IMG/VR virus record: IMGVR_UViG_3300034068_001120
Location: 1 to 64,000 of that record
DNA: 64,000 nucleotides
Direction: 5' to 3' (one strand)
Origin: a virus
The first letter of the stretch is position 1; the number at the start of each line of letters is the position of its first letter. A program made the position numbers and the translations under genes. Shown here piece after piece: positions 1,174 through 57,910 of this stretch. Below the pieces are notes generated by a model. The model saw only the letters and a list, made by a program, of their open reading frames with translations. It did not search any database and was not told where the DNA came from.

Positions 1174-1815
1174 TTAAAGTTTTGATACAAAATCGGCGTA
1201 TAGCTTCATCATTTGTTCTTCTAGGTTTCTAGAAGCGGTATTTTCAATGATTTTCTTATAAGAATCAATGACAATTGGCTTGATTATTCCATTGTCCCAG
1301 ATCCATTCTTTTCCTTCCATTATGCCATTTACAAAGGCATTTGGGGCAGATGGATCTGCCACCACATCGACCGAGGCAAGCATAAAGTCTTCTTGAACTA
1401 TGTTGACTCCTTCGTGTTCTTTGAGAGATCCCATGCCTCTTGAAGAAACTCCAAGTTTGGCACCTTCATCCATCAAATTTTTAACTATTTTTCCGTATGG
1501 CGTATCTAGAATCTTGGCTCGGCCGTATACGTCATTTCCTTCAACTCTGAGTTCTTTAATAATATGAGAGACTCGATCTAGATTTATTGACGGGCCTTCT
1601 GGATGACCCATTTCACCCATTGCTCTATTTTGTAGAACATATTCATTATTATATCGAGTAACCTCATTGTTCATTGTTGTTGAAGGATACATTCTGCCAT
1701 TGCGATTCTTGGTCTCGCTCTGCATGAAAATACCTTCAATAAAATAATTCTTCGCACCATTCTTTTCTTCGGTAAGAAGTTTTACACTGAGAGTTGTTTC
1801 CGTAATTAATTTCAT
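1174..1815 (-). CDS. gp21: Prohead maturation protease gp21
   Basis: This serine protease sits in the prohead core, cleaves scaffold, capsid and internal proteins after (L/I)xE, and then itself. It has 213 aa against 212 in T4. Family landmarks are visible: YFIEGIFMQSE at 24-34, the catalytic-histidine region GEMGHPEGP (His71), the nucleophile region GVSSRGMGSL (Ser124/125), and VDVVADPSAPNAF near 149-161. Its own N-terminus holds LITE, a plausible self-cleavage site. The start overlaps the stop of the upstream gp68-like gene as ATGA, so the two are translationally coupled. Its specificity matters for the three putative packaged proteins found elsewhere in the window. Confidence 0.96.
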   Translation of the reverse strand: MKLITETTLSVKLLTEEKNGAKNYFIEGIFMQSETKNRNGRMYPSTTMNNEVTRYNNEYVLQNRAMGEMGHPEGPSINLDRVSHIIKELRVEGNDVYGRAKILDTPYGKIVKNLMDEGAKLGVSSRGMGSLKEHEGVNIVQEDFMLASVDVVADPSAPNAFVNGIMEGKEWIWDNGIIKPIVIDSYKKIIENTASRNLEEQMMKLYADFVSKL

Positions 1816-2218: not shown

Positions 2219-2407
2219 TTATTTAGTAATATCTTCATCTTCGGTATTGTTCTCGTCCTCAATATTTGAGGATTTGTCCATATAAAATAAAGAATTCGAT
2301 ATATTTCTTCGTTCTGTGTCTAATTTTTCTCGAACTTTGTCTTTGAGTTGACTGAAAATAGCCGTCTGAAAGTCCCCAAATCCCATATCTTCTTCATCAT
2401 TGCTCAT
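2219..2407 (-). CDS. gp67: Small acidic prohead core protein, gp67-like
   Basis: 62 aa with an acidic, disordered C-terminus (NIEDENNTEDEDITK) and a short central helix (SQLKDKVREKLDTERRN). T4 gp67 (80 aa) is likewise a small protein with a strongly acidic tail, encoded between the portal and gp68. Position and composition support the assignment; sequence identity is not obvious. Its ATG overlaps the portal stop codon (ATGA), so translation is probably coupled to gp20. Confidence 0.55.
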   Translation of the reverse strand: MSNDEEDMGFGDFQTAIFSQLKDKVREKLDTERRNISNSLFYMDKSSNIEDENNTEDEDITK

Positions 2408-4068
2408 TTTGATTTACCTTTCGGTGGCACTATTTCGCCAATTGTGACATCTCTCTTCTTTGGTTGTTCCGAAGCAACAGAGGCTGGTTTAGATCCACCT
2501 GCTGGCTCTGGACTTGGAGGTGCATTTACATCTTGACCACCCTGAGGAACAATTGTTCCTTCTTGGGTCTCGGCGTTAATCTCGGCATCAATTGCATTCA
2601 TATCTTCATCTGTTTGACGTAGAATATGCTTACGAATCCAATTTCTTGAATAATATCGTCCAACAAAATCTTCTGCATCTCTTGCCGATGTCATTCTATC
2701 TCGCAATACTTCAGATTCTTTGAGTTCTGTAAAGTGAGAATCTTTATTAAATTGAAAAACCAGATTTGATTCTATATCTTTCCATTCATCTTCTCGGATT
2801 ACACCTTTAAGAATTAATTGAACTCGCATCAGTTCTGAAATCAATTCACTGAACTTCATACGAAGTCGTTCAATAAATTTAAAGAATTTCACTTCATCTC
2901 TTGAAATTTCTGATGCTCTTCCCAGATTAAATCCAGATTGTTCTTCTAATCTAGAAGCAGGAACATTCAATGCTTGAAATAATTTCTTCTGGAAATACTT
3001 AACATCATCCATTTCTCCAAGATTCTGTCCAGCAGGCATTGTAGTGATTTCTGTGCCTTTTCCGCCTTCACGGCGTGGCATCCAAAAATCCTCAATCATG
3101 GATAGATGTTTTCTACTATCTCCAATTTCACCTGTAGATGGATCATATATTAACTTGTTGCGATATCGTCGCATAAGACCACTAACATATTCTTCTGCTT
3201 TTGCCTTTGGTAAATTGCCTACATCTACATAAAAAATTCTGCGTTCTGGTGCTCGTGTTATTCTGTAAATAACAATAGCATCTTCAATCATTCGCAATTG
3301 ATTTAATGATTTAATTGCTTTATGCAAATATCCAATAATTTTCTTTCGTCGTGCGTCATACAATCCAGAATGAGCAAAGCAAATGGCATCTGGAGAAATA
3401 CGCAAGCCTTCAAGTTGTCCGCCAATATTTCCAGAAGCAGTTGTGGATGATTCATTTTCACTGAACACATAAAATTCTTCAACTGATGTTACTAGATTGG
3501 CTCCAGTTGGCGCGCCTTGTATCAACGGCTTTTTATGAATCTTGCGAATTTTTCGTATTTTTATAGGATCAATTGGACGCAATTCCATGATGCCGTTCTT
3601 CTTTTGTTTTTCGTCTACAATAATATGATAATATATTCTACCATCAACATACCATCTTCGGAATATTTCATATCCTCGTTTAGACATATTCAACAATCTC
3701 AGAATTTCATGAAATTCTTCTTCTATTTTAGTTTTAATACTAGACGGTAGTTTTAACTTTGCAACATCTAGTTTAATGATCTCATATGATTCGTCATAGA
3801 CAATTGCTTCATTGCAAATATCATTAATGGCGGTTTCTGCTTCCGGTTGCAGTGCCATATCACGATACTTGTGAATTAATTCTATGTCGGTTTTTATGGA
3901 TCCGTCAAAATCAACATATGCGCCATAGTAGCCACCTGCTTCTACAGGATATGCGCCATCGTCGTAATCAGGTGCGACAAATGAAACCGCTTTGGAATTT
4001 GCGGGCTTATCGTCGGGATCTTTTCCGGGATTCTTGCCTAATATCAATCCGAATAAATTAAATGCCAT
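2404..4068 (-). CDS. gp20: Portal vertex protein gp20
   Basis: Dodecameric portal through which DNA enters and leaves the head and on which the prohead is built. About 554 aa from the ATG at 4068 (T4: 524). Family blocks include VSFVAPDYDDGAYPVEAGGY near the N-terminus, ELRPIDPIKIRKIRK, ICFAHSGLYD, KSLNQLRMIEDAIVIYRITR and FFKFIERLRMKFSELI. I chose ATG 4068 (MAFNLFGL) over an in-frame TTG 15 nt upstream because it has a usable spacing to GGAC and matches the usual portal N-terminus. It lies between the tube gene and the prohead core genes as in T4. Confidence 0.96.
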   Translation of the reverse strand: MAFNLFGLILGKNPGKDPDDKPANSKAVSFVAPDYDDGAYPVEAGGYYGAYVDFDGSIKTDIELIHKYRDMALQPEAETAINDICNEAIVYDESYEIIKLDVAKLKLPSSIKTKIEEEFHEILRLLNMSKRGYEIFRRWYVDGRIYYHIIVDEKQKKNGIMELRPIDPIKIRKIRKIHKKPLIQGAPTGANLVTSVEEFYVFSENESSTTASGNIGGQLEGLRISPDAICFAHSGLYDARRKKIIGYLHKAIKSLNQLRMIEDAIVIYRITRAPERRIFYVDVGNLPKAKAEEYVSGLMRRYRNKLIYDPSTGEIGDSRKHLSMIEDFWMPRREGGKGTEITTMPAGQNLGEMDDVKYFQKKLFQALNVPASRLEEQSGFNLGRASEISRDEVKFFKFIERLRMKFSELISELMRVQLILKGVIREDEWKDIESNLVFQFNKDSHFTELKESEVLRDRMTSARDAEDFVGRYYSRNWIRKHILRQTDEDMNAIDAEINAETQEGTIVPQGGQDVNAPPSPEPAGGSKPASVASEQPKKRDVTIGEIVPPKGKSK

Positions 4069-4097
4069 AAATGTAAAGTCCAATCAAAAAAGGTGAA

Positions 4098-40783: not shown

Positions 40784-41620
40784 TTATTCTACCGGCGTAT
40801 TTGGCTCTTTTACCGATGTTCTCTTGGCAAATTTGTTTGCAGAATCAATATTATCAAAATATTCAAACTTGCCATTTCTGTCTTTGGCACCCCAAATACC
40901 ACTACTAGTTTTCCAAACAGACTGCAAGGCATGGTATTTTGGATCATGATACTCTCCAGCCTGTTTGCCAATTTTTGGTTTTTTGTTTTCTGTACCCTTG
41001 GTTGGAGCATATAGTTTAGCATTGCCAGAGTTGGCTGGTAGATAGTCTGTTGGCGATGCCTTTGTCTGGGTCTTGGATCGATCTGGAGGCGTTTCTTCTC
41101 CTGTTTTGGCTCCAGACCCTCCAGACTCTAAAGCAGAAAAGAAATCAGTTACTTTATGCTTTGCCAATTCTAAGTTATCTTGTCCTTCACCCTTCTCAAA
41201 CTTCATTAATACTTTACCTATTCCCTTGGTTTCGTTGGTGGAAATATAATAAAAATTTATTGAATTCTTAAACATAACCAAAGGTTGATCAAATTGACGA
41301 CCCAAAGTTATAATTTGTGTTTTTGTGATATTTGGCACCATTAAACTCTTTTCAGATACATCATTGCCTTCTTTTTTAGAAGAACTACACAATTCAATAT
41401 AACCGTATCCCATATCAATTACTTTTGATTTTAATTCATCATGAGTTTGTGCATTGATTTCTTCGGTTGCCTTGCTTTGAAAACTAGAAACTATACCAAA
41501 ATCTCTACTATCATCTGCCACTAAATCAAAAACAGCAGACAATCTCTTTTTGGTGGGATTACTGGTTTCCATCGCCTCAGATAGTGTGCACTTATTAAAA
41601 TATTGCGTGAATTTCTTCAT
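40784..41620 (-). CDS. Putative packaged internal protein, DUF3293-like core
   Basis: 278 aa. The N-terminus MKKFTQYFNKCTLSEA has the pattern of the T4 capsid-targeting sequence (T4: MKTYQEFIAE), with aromatic residues at 4 and 7 and a gp21-type site LSE at 13-15. Residues ~30-135 (FGIVSSFQSKATEEINAQTH; VIDMGYGYIELCSS; SLMVPNITKTQIITLGRQFD; QPLVMFK) resemble the DUF3293-type proteins of phages. The C-terminal half is a linker with Ser/Thr/Pro and a last domain with YHALQSVWKTSSGIWGAKDR. A TATAAATA late promoter lies 10 nt upstream. I infer it is packaged into the head and injected. Confidence 0.75.
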   Translation of the reverse strand: MKKFTQYFNKCTLSEAMETSNPTKKRLSAVFDLVADDSRDFGIVSSFQSKATEEINAQTHDELKSKVIDMGYGYIELCSSSKKEGNDVSEKSLMVPNITKTQIITLGRQFDQPLVMFKNSINFYYISTNETKGIGKVLMKFEKGEGQDNLELAKHKVTDFFSALESGGSGAKTGEETPPDRSKTQTKASPTDYLPANSGNAKLYAPTKGTENKKPKIGKQAGEYHDPKYHALQSVWKTSSGIWGAKDRNGKFEYFDNIDSANKFAKRTSVKEPNTPVE

Positions 41621-56383: not shown

Positions 56384-57055
56384 TCAAAGTTGCACAGCCT
56401 GATAATTTGCTCCTGCTTTCAATATAGGAGCAGGAAGAAACATCTTACGATTACATATAGGATTGCAATACGACTCGGCATAATATCCTGCCATAGAAAT
56501 CCATTCAGGATTACCATTTCCTGGAGGAACAAGTCGAACAGGAGCATCAATTGCGTGTTGCAAAGCCAAAAGAAATTGTTCGTCGTTTAGATGATTGCTT
56601 TCTGTAATAAAAATATCCCAAGCAGCCAATCCATGAACAATCATACAAAGAGTAGTCCATCCTGTATCTGTGGGAGAGATGGTAATACCAATCATGTCCA
56701 TCATTTTCCTGTTTGTTGACATGGGAGCAATAGTGGTATCATATTGAATAGAACAATGTTCTCTACCATTAGAATGTCCAAGTAGATGACTTGCTTCACG
56801 CCGTGAACGCTTGTCAAGAATACTTAAATATTCATTAACCTTATCAGTCATTGCGCTCATTCGTTCTTGAATACCCAACTCTCGTTCTTCACGCAATTTA
56901 ATAAATATATTCTCACAATGTCGAAAAGGTACATACGCAGGAATTATCCTGACTCCCACACTACGCGCGGGAAGTGTAGACGGAGAGGTGGCAAGAGCCT
57001 GTTTAATGGCCGCAAGATGAGCAGTGATGTTAGCGGAAGGGTTAGGTGTTTTCAT
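56384..57055 (-). CDS. Unknown accessory protein under its own strong promoter
   Basis: 223 aa from ATG 57055 (MKTPNPSANITAHLAAIKQA); six codons upstream are open but would extend into the -10 box. The middle has IFIKLREERELGIQERMSAM, GREHCSIQYDTTIAPM and GWTTLCMIVHGLAAWDIFIT; C-terminus with AGYYAESYCNPICNRKMF. No family recognised. Promoter at 57065-57093 leaves a leader of only about 3 nt. First gene of the minus-strand operon that continues to 49 kb. Confidence 0.7.
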   Translation of the reverse strand: MKTPNPSANITAHLAAIKQALATSPSTLPARSVGVRIIPAYVPFRHCENIFIKLREERELGIQERMSAMTDKVNEYLSILDKRSRREASHLLGHSNGREHCSIQYDTTIAPMSTNRKMMDMIGITISPTDTGWTTLCMIVHGLAAWDIFITESNHLNDEQFLLALQHAIDAPVRLVPPGNGNPEWISMAGYYAESYCNPICNRKMFLPAPILKAGANYQAVQL

Positions 57056-57064
57056 GTTATACAA

Positions 57065-57093
57065 AGTATACAACAGGAATCACCTCTTGTCAA
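57065..57093 (-). promoter_or_regulatory. Sigma70-like promoter heading the 57-49 kb operon
   Basis: TTGACA (57088-57093) - 17 bp - TATACT (57065-57070) on the minus strand, followed by TTTGTATAACATG, so the transcript should start 2-5 nt before the ATG at 57055. Confidence 0.75.
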
Positions 57094-57377
57094 ATGAGAA
57101 GCCTAATAATGAATATTTTAATTTGATACCTGCATTATTATTCGTAAAATACATTATCCGAATAAAATATCGGCAGAATATGCTATTCAAGAGAGCATAA
57201 CAGGAGAGTGGTGCTATGACGAAAGAGGTGGGATAGCGGATCACAGCGGTCATTCTAGCCTTATAGATAAACCACTGTGAAGTCGGTGTCAGGTGGGGTG
57301 AATGGTGTCTGCGGGTGTCTGATGGTGTCAGGATGATGTTGGGTTAGTCTGCATACCCAGATGGACTCTATTTTTAC
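57094..57377. other. Gene-free stretch with G-rich repeats
   Basis: No convincing gene on either strand. The left part (57100-57240) is AT-rich without clear signals. The right part holds four GGTGTC hexamers and a strongly G-rich top strand (see repeat entry), followed by CATAAATA before the plus-strand gene at 57391. The minus-strand frame covering it is a shadow. Confidence 0.6.
57285..57329. repeat. GGTGTC iterons
   Basis: GGTGTC occurs at 57285, 57304, 57314 and 57324; the last three are spaced exactly 10 bp, one helical turn, and GGTGGGGTG lies between the first two. Looks like a phased protein-binding array in a gene-free region; purpose unknown. Confidence 0.6.
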
Positions 57378-57385
57378 CATAAATA
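57378..57385 (+). promoter_or_regulatory. Possible late promoter variant (CATAAATA)
   Basis: CATAAATA on the plus strand, 5 nt before ATG 57391. One mismatch to TATAAATA. If used, the RNA would begin at the start codon. Weak alone; supported by the late-type nature of the gene behind it. Confidence 0.35.
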
Positions 57386-57390
57386 CTTTT

Positions 57391-57783
57391 ATGATCACCT
57401 TTATTCCTTTTCTTCTAGAATCTTCCCCGACACTCTCTGCACTTCGTCGAGCCAATGAAAAAGACTTGCAAGAACTTCCAGGGACCCGTGGCAAAGCAGC
57501 ACATCGCAAATTACATCTTATAATTAAAAGATTAATTCGTAACGAATCCACTGATTGGAGATCAAACCTGCACCTGTGGAGAGAGTACCTGCAAGCTACT
57601 ATGCAAGAAGATAGTACTATTGGTATAGGCTTTCCTGCAGCAGAACCAGCCCAGAGAGCGGCTCGAGAACCGGGATCTGATCCAACTATGACGGCTAAAA
57701 GAATGAGACGGCGTAGACCTGTCGGTGAATGGTCGAGGTCTGGTACTGGACCAGTTGAGATGGGTAGAAGCACTTGGAGTTAA
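57391..57783 (+). CDS. Putative packaged basic internal protein
   Basis: 130 aa from ATG 57391 (an in-frame ATG at 57361 would add ten residues). The N-terminus MITFIPFLLESSPTLS aligns residue for residue with T4's capsid-targeting sequence MKTYQEFIAE: M1, T3, aromatic 4, F7, aliphatic 8, E10, with LLE as gp21 site. The rest is basic (KAAHRKLHLIIKRLIRNEST; KRMRRRRPVGEWSRSG), suited to lie with packaged DNA. It is one of two plus-strand genes in the accessory region. Base composition is richer in G+C than its neighbours. A minus-strand frame over the same DNA is considered a shadow. Confidence 0.65.
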   Translation: MITFIPFLLESSPTLSALRRANEKDLQELPGTRGKAAHRKLHLIIKRLIRNESTDWRSNLHLWREYLQATMQEDSTIGIGFPAAEPAQRAAREPGSDPTMTAKRMRRRRPVGEWSRSGTGPVEMGRSTWS

Positions 57784-57814: not shown

Positions 57815-57816
57815 AA

Positions 57817-57890
57817 CATTCCTGAGTGGACTCGAACCACTGACCACCAGATTAGAAATCTAGTGCTCTATCCAACTGAGCTACAGGAAT
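57817..57890 (-). tRNA. tRNA-Arg (TCT)
   Basis: 74 nt. Acceptor ATTCCTG/CAGGAAT, D arm GCTC/GAGC, anticodon arm CTAGA-TTTCTAA-TCTGG with anticodon TCT (reads AGA), T arm AGTGG-TTCGAGT-CCACT. Discriminator G, CCA not encoded. Confidence 0.95.
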
Positions 57891-57910
57891 AACATATTAG
57901 TTGATTAGTT

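Follow-up and report, generated by a model that had tools for sequence, protein, structure and literature searches.

The subject of this report is an open reading frame (ORF) at positions 57391-57783 of a 64,000-nt stretch of viral DNA, hereafter the window, which corresponds to the initial 64 kb of a linear virus record of 102,841 bases (IMG/VR record IMGVR_UViG_3300034068_001120). We propose, with a probability of roughly 0.7, that this ORF, read from ATG 57391, is a late gene and encodes a small internal (core) protein of a T4-type phage that would be cut after E10, packaged and injected into the host. The initial annotation had assigned an injected protein to this locus, and four observations now support that assignment: (i) a gp21-type S77 protease is encoded in the same genome, (ii) the phage has other genes starting with a capsid-targeting sequence (CTS), (iii) the late-promoter motif NATAAATA stands at its commonest distance from the start codon, and (iv) the MI[ST]F variant of the CTS is frequent in nature. 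Packaging, cleavage and injection themselves are predicted by analogy with T4. Placement, strand and letters of the ORF were all as first described. The features of the locus are the following.

57391-57783, plus strand: ORF under study, ATG to TAA, 130 codons (130 aa), starting with MITFIPFLLE followed by SS
57391..57420, plus strand: capsid-targeting-like propeptide MITFIPFLLE, with predicted cleavage after E10
57421..57783, plus strand: predicted mature protein and stop codon, 120 aa from SSPTLS, basic
57378..57385, plus strand: late-promoter-like -10 element CATAAATA, 5 nt before ATG 57391
57361..57390, plus strand: in-frame upstream extension from the alternative start ATG 57361, which would give 140 aa

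Resemblance of the N-terminus to the capsid-targeting sequence

The CTS resemblance of MITFIPFLLE exceeds chance. It had been described as a position-by-position match to T4 MKTYQEFIAE, and the two peptides indeed have in common M1, T3, an aromatic residue at position 4, F7, an aliphatic residue at position 8, and E10; positions 2 (I for K), 5, 6 and 9 are unlike. This first comparison was post hoc, whereas the ranking of all start codons by a profile was not. Such a ranking of N-termini across the contig had been suggested as a check in the initial annotation; using the full set of an external CTS profile built from other viruses, MITFIPFLLE scores 14.2 bits and is fourth among the 918 ATG starts of the 102.8-kb contig, three CTS genes of the same phage scoring higher. 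T4 ipIII itself obtains 15.7 bits under this profile, and none of 40 shuffled contigs reaches the score of MITFIPFLLE. A second profile, omitting this virus's own proteins, yields 14.1 bits, a value equalled by 1 of 26,482 internal positions outside CTS genes, which corresponds to about 0.03 matches by chance over all ATG starts of the genome. The weight of residue 2 in the profile is an estimate from few non-K starts; when this position is dropped, the peptide still scores 13.8 bits.

Amber-suppressor work on T4 IPIII showed that residues 4 and 7 matter most for targeting, and residues 8 and 10 for processing (PMC9026906). All four are kept in MITFIPFLLE, position 6 being outside those tested in T4 IPIII. 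The ten N-terminal residues carry the combination of an aromatic residue 4, F/Y7, an aliphatic residue 8 and E10, and are weakest at P6.

IMG/VR was scanned for TATAAATA followed after 4-18 nt by codons for MKxFxx[FY][aliphatic]xE, and, to assess the variation at position 2, also for the I2 form, the same codons in reversed order serving as control. The K2 form was found in at least 120 stretches (6 with reversed codons) and the I2 form in at least 119 stretches or loci (18 for the codon-reversed control). The 77 unique I2 proteins read MI[ST]FK[QEK][FY][LI]xE, and some have the same cargo types. Judged by these counts, I2 is widespread among natural forms of the predicted CTS. Lysine as a CTS requirement was rejected: since the I2 loci outnumber their reversed control, K2 is usual but not defining.

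Late promoter and choice of the start codon

The motif NATAAATA is the published late promoter of the T4-like cyanophage S-PM2 (PMC2984593). Its commonest distance to the ATG is 5 nt, both in K2-type CTS genes (42 of 109) and in I2-type genes (31 of 77), as well as in non-CTS genes of the same loci (38/113). In the contig, ATAAATA precedes an ORF-opening ATG 14 times, compared with 1.2 times in shuffled sequences. At contig 79188-79203 (L004, plus strand), CATAAATA occurs exactly 5 nt before the ATG of a MIIAGIDYSL-type protein, and likewise in other viruses, so this arrangement is conserved for non-CTS genes too. No Shine-Dalgarno sequence precedes ATG 57391, which is also the case for most CTS genes here, unlike most structural genes. 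Late expression of ORF 57391 is thus predicted from sequence evidence, namely CATAAATA placed 5 nt upstream, and the same placement supports translation from 57391.

The start codon is the point on which the main rival explanation depends. It assumes a real gene starting at ATG 57361, whose N-terminus is a hydrophobic segment (MDSIFTINTFMITFIPFLLESS) that acts as a short membrane anchor or signal, the CTS likeness being incidental to a stretch of F, I and L residues. The frame is open from 57361, the peak hydropathy from this start is near membrane grade (1.85 over 15 residues and 1.53 over 19), and residues 5, 6 and 9 of MITFIPFLLE are hydrophobic, unlike most CTS genes. However, a start at 57361 would bury the motif and place the late-promoter element inside the gene, between the two ATG codons and at the commonest distance from the second; neither a promoter element nor a Shine-Dalgarno sequence was seen before 57361, and this start scores -18.6 bits on the CTS profile. 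Moreover, the correct placement of T3, F4, F7, L8 and E10 is improbable by chance. We consider this explanation unlikely, although it is the best of the alternatives.

The virus and its processing protease

Matches to PHROGs and Pfam in the contig include a portal, an S77 protease, baseplate wedge and hub, tail tube and tail sheath proteins; by gene content, the virus is a member of the T4 superfamily. The major capsid protein was not seen because the contig ends near gp21. Two head genes are encoded close to the start of the window.

1174..1815, minus strand: gp21-type prohead protease (Peptidase_S77), PF03420 E = 7.8e-40 at 1318-1755
2404..4083, minus strand: T4-type portal protein (gp20), phrog_213, E = 4.1e-199

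The processing enzyme that matches the proposed cleavage site is encoded in the same genome as ORF 57391. An S77 protease was found in 8 of the 11 CTS-pattern-bearing records of at least 100 kb; the three others may be fragments or false positives of the pattern. Among phages, the protease is present in T4, KVP40, P-SSM2, S-BM3 and HTVC008M, and no match to it was obtained in ICP2 or phiKZ. S-BM3 has the protease, yet no match to the strict K2 pattern.

Other CTS genes of the same phage

When every one of the 2,634 possible starts was compared with T4 MKTYQEFIAE by BLOSUM62, five other CTS genes came up, and ORF 57391 was 14th. By their N-termini, the phage has at least five predicted CTS genes besides ORF 57391. 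They are listed here together with a second candidate from the window.

Contig 74473-74748 (L004:11474-11749), plus strand: MKTFFQFITE, HNH-type, 91 aa
Contig 81529, minus strand: MKTFIAFMRE
Contig 71073, plus strand: MKSFIQYLKE, 148 aa
Contig 71516, plus strand: MKSFLEHLTE, 97 aa, DUF6321
Contig 72439-73158 (L004:9440-10159), minus strand: MKNFHRYIDE, nucleotidyltransferase-like (phrog_36119), with TATAAATA
Window 40784..41620, minus strand: second candidate CTS gene in the window, MKKFTQYFNKCTLSE..., 278 aa, 11.6 bits, DUF3293 body, with TATAAATA 10 nt upstream

Two of the five genes have TATAAATA 11-12 nt upstream. The gene at 40784..41620 is only tentatively assigned as a CTS gene from its sequence; it lacks E10 but has an L-x-E site at residues 13-15. 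The MKSFIQYLKE and MKSFLEHLTE genes are consecutive (contig 71073-71809, L004:8074-8810, plus strand), the second beginning before the first has ended, and both contain domains common to large cyanophage proteins. Tagged proteins resembling the MKNFHRYIDE protein were observed at three other loci (L059, L068 and L077).

Body of the protein

The body had been called strongly basic, and its pI is 11.0. An AlphaFold2 model computed from the single sequence has helices at 15-28, 32-51 and 56-76 (block pLDDT about 70-82) and a disordered basic tail, with a mean pLDDT of 60.9; a Foldseek search with this low-confidence model returned no match with E below 2.4. The protein belongs to no Pfam or PHROG family, and no enzymatic domain was found in it. 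A Pfam HHH_5 match (E 0.16-0.18) fell below the cut-off and was not accepted, and a kinship with the HNH-type CTS protein at 74473, suggested by eye from a similar G-T-x-x-K stretch, was backed by no search. Relatives were absent from 50,697 phage records (tblastn) and from GTDB genomes searched by peptide pattern, and no homologue of the body was found in viral contigs, fetched loci and 21 phage records; the sole match, a fragment of this very virus without a single difference, lacks the N-terminus. The orphan status given to the gene at the outset thus holds in the collections searched, and the body is basic and without conserved sequence beyond the CTS.

Proposed mechanism and its alternatives

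The proposed life of the internal protein would comprise the following steps: (i) late sigma-dependent transcription from CATAAATA would give a nearly leaderless mRNA, (ii) translation would begin at its nearly leaderless ATG 57391, (iii) the first ten residues would dock in the prohead core, F4 and F7 making the contact, (iv) gp21 would cut after FLLE, where LLE forms an L/I-x-E site at residue 10, and (v) the basic helical body, from SSPTLS to the end, would stay in the head with the DNA and enter the host at infection. In T4, the GmrSD restriction enzymes inhibited by IPI, IPII and IPIII differ from one another (PMC12373910), and counter-defence is therefore the leading guess for what the protein does in the host. 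By this analogy, its likeliest function would be early counter-defence or one associated with DNA.

Several observations weigh against this mechanism. In the CTS set, the 5th percentile is 16.9 bits, which is above the score of MITFIPFLLE, and P6 costs 3.7 bits in the profile. Residues I5 and L9 are hydrophobic, whereas CTS genes are mostly polar there; together with P6, they break the amphipathic pattern. Position 2 has I and not the usual K. No homologue of ORF 57391 was found in the searched collections. Finally, the codon score alone does not separate the ORF from false ORFs, 34% of which equal or exceed it.

Some of these points would also fit a real ORF from 57391 whose N-terminus is only CTS-like; its product would then be a usual small protein of late expression or host interaction and would stay outside the capsid. 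Position 2 is not K, position 6 is P, and a match of such a score is expected by chance about 0.03 times per genome. This explanation, however, needs the motif, the promoter spacing, the basic body and the richness of the genome in CTS genes to coincide, and we regard it as slightly less probable again than a start at 57361.

The remaining question is whether the ORF is a gene. It occupies part of a 742-nt gap flanked by a gene (56384-57073) and a tRNA-Arg (57816-57891), both on the minus strand, and would be a single plus-strand gene amid minus-strand genes. Its GC content by codon position (0.52/0.54/0.32) matches the coding pattern of the genome, and its frame is the best of six by codon score over most of the interval. 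Codon usage is nevertheless indecisive, because neighbouring genes in the stretch have atypical codon scores too. The least probable explanation, a chance open frame in the gap or the shadow of an overlapping minus-strand gene (57261-57773, 170 aa), would agree with the strand of the nearby genes and with the indecisive codon scores, but an ATG ORF of 130 codons arises in such a gap in 0.7% of shuffles, the frame of ORF 57391 scores above the antisense one (0.077 vs -0.125 bits per codon), and no Pfam or PHROG family matches the antisense ORF. The region had been described as compositionally odd; the direction of this claim stands (GC 0.463 in the ORF vs 0.389 in the contig, 94.5th percentile), whereas its degree does not, the deviation being mild. 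Degenerate GGTGTC repeats occupy positions 57285-57345 of the window, in the gap just upstream of the ORF.

The CTS as a probable separable unit in T4-type viruses

Comparison of the tagged proteins with their untagged relatives suggests that the CTS acts as a separable unit. In the 74473 protein, KTFFQFITER stands between the initiator M and the body, whereas in gp12 of the podophage ICP2 the body directly follows M (MAKKRNYRQEY... aligned with M-KTFFQFITER-AKVRNYKKEY...). Cyanophage homologues of the 148-aa MKSFIQYLKE protein, similarly, mostly align from residue 12 onward. The 74473 HNH-type protein is predicted to be a packaged nuclease-like protein.

In 19 phage records searched with no promoter required and Y allowed at position 4, the motif occurs 34 times and its reversal once. 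As a positive control, T4 returned ipII and ipIII as expected, plus gene 61.1. The latter (L141:667-831; NC_000866.4 18966-19130, minus strand) encodes a 54-aa hypothetical protein that starts with MKTFKEFIKE followed by D, a full CTS match, and adjoins 61.2 (adfA). Gene 61.1 may encode an overlooked T4 internal protein.

The 101 distinct tagged proteins of environmental viruses have no invariant residues other than M1, F4 and E10, which the search pattern itself prescribes. Their bodies match DUF6267, Zeta-toxin-like, ADP-ribosyltransferase, NUDIX and HicA, and further RelA/SpoT, glucosaminidase, ATP-grasp, methyltransferase and RNA-ligase. HLEHVEDH-type proteins are repeatedly tagged in environmental T4-type viruses (L061, L065, L099, L146, L155, L160 and L234), and some of them are probably DUF6267 matches. 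We lean towards the view that the CTS is a superfamily-wide separable delivery tag on many unrelated bodies, by which a large effector set would be injected with the DNA, ORF 57391 being one orphan member. With the same leaning, the tagged bodies of environmental T4-type viruses would also include HNH nucleases, murein-cutting enzymes and orphans, and this virus would have about six or seven such genes. In the open-access literature, the scope of our survey, CTS-type leaders are described for T-even phages, and we found no survey of them in cyanophages or environmental T4-type viruses.

Knowledge of the proteins that T4-type phages inject comes mainly from a few T-even examples, which were found to counteract restriction enzymes of the host. 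With a reliable sequence label made up of the CTS and a late promoter, it would become readable from sequence which phage proteins are injected. In the one uncultured phage studied here, this label marks an orphan together with at least five other genes, and among environmental viruses it marks well over a hundred; many of the marked domains would plausibly affect the host during the first minutes of infection. Of wider interest is how broadly environmental T4-type viruses use the tag.

Comparison with known packaged proteins

According to Mullaney and Black in 1996, the T4 internal proteins IPI, IPII and IPIII reportedly carry a capsid-targeting sequence. The ORF 57391 protein is like them in its ten-residue N-terminal motif with an aromatic residue 4, F7, an aliphatic residue 8 and E10, in its small basic body without conserved sequence, and in the gp21-type protease of its genome. 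It is unlike them in having I2 for K2, P6 and hydrophobic residues 5 and 9, in a body unrelated to any IP, in being encoded by a single plus-strand gene among minus-strand genes, and in being a predicted virion protein. The T4 internal proteins and their CTS have been reviewed (PMC9026906).

The I2-type environmental CTS proteins, such as MITFREYLIE (L057:2376-2744), share I2, T3, F4, an aliphatic residue 8, E10 and NATAAATA at 5 nt with ORF 57391, but mostly have K/R at position 5 and a polar residue at position 6, and their bodies are unrelated to it. T4 Alt, a packaged ADP-ribosyltransferase, is a core protein with a short N-terminal propeptide that is removed by gp21, and is injected (PMC9026906). 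The Alt propeptide is shorter (7 residues), and the ORF 57391 protein differs from Alt also in having no enzymatic domain detected.

Elsewhere in the contig, a collagen-like protein of 881 aa with Gly-Pro/Ser-Thr repeats is encoded on the minus strand (contig 98346-100991, L005:16346-18991) amid tail-fibre-like genes.
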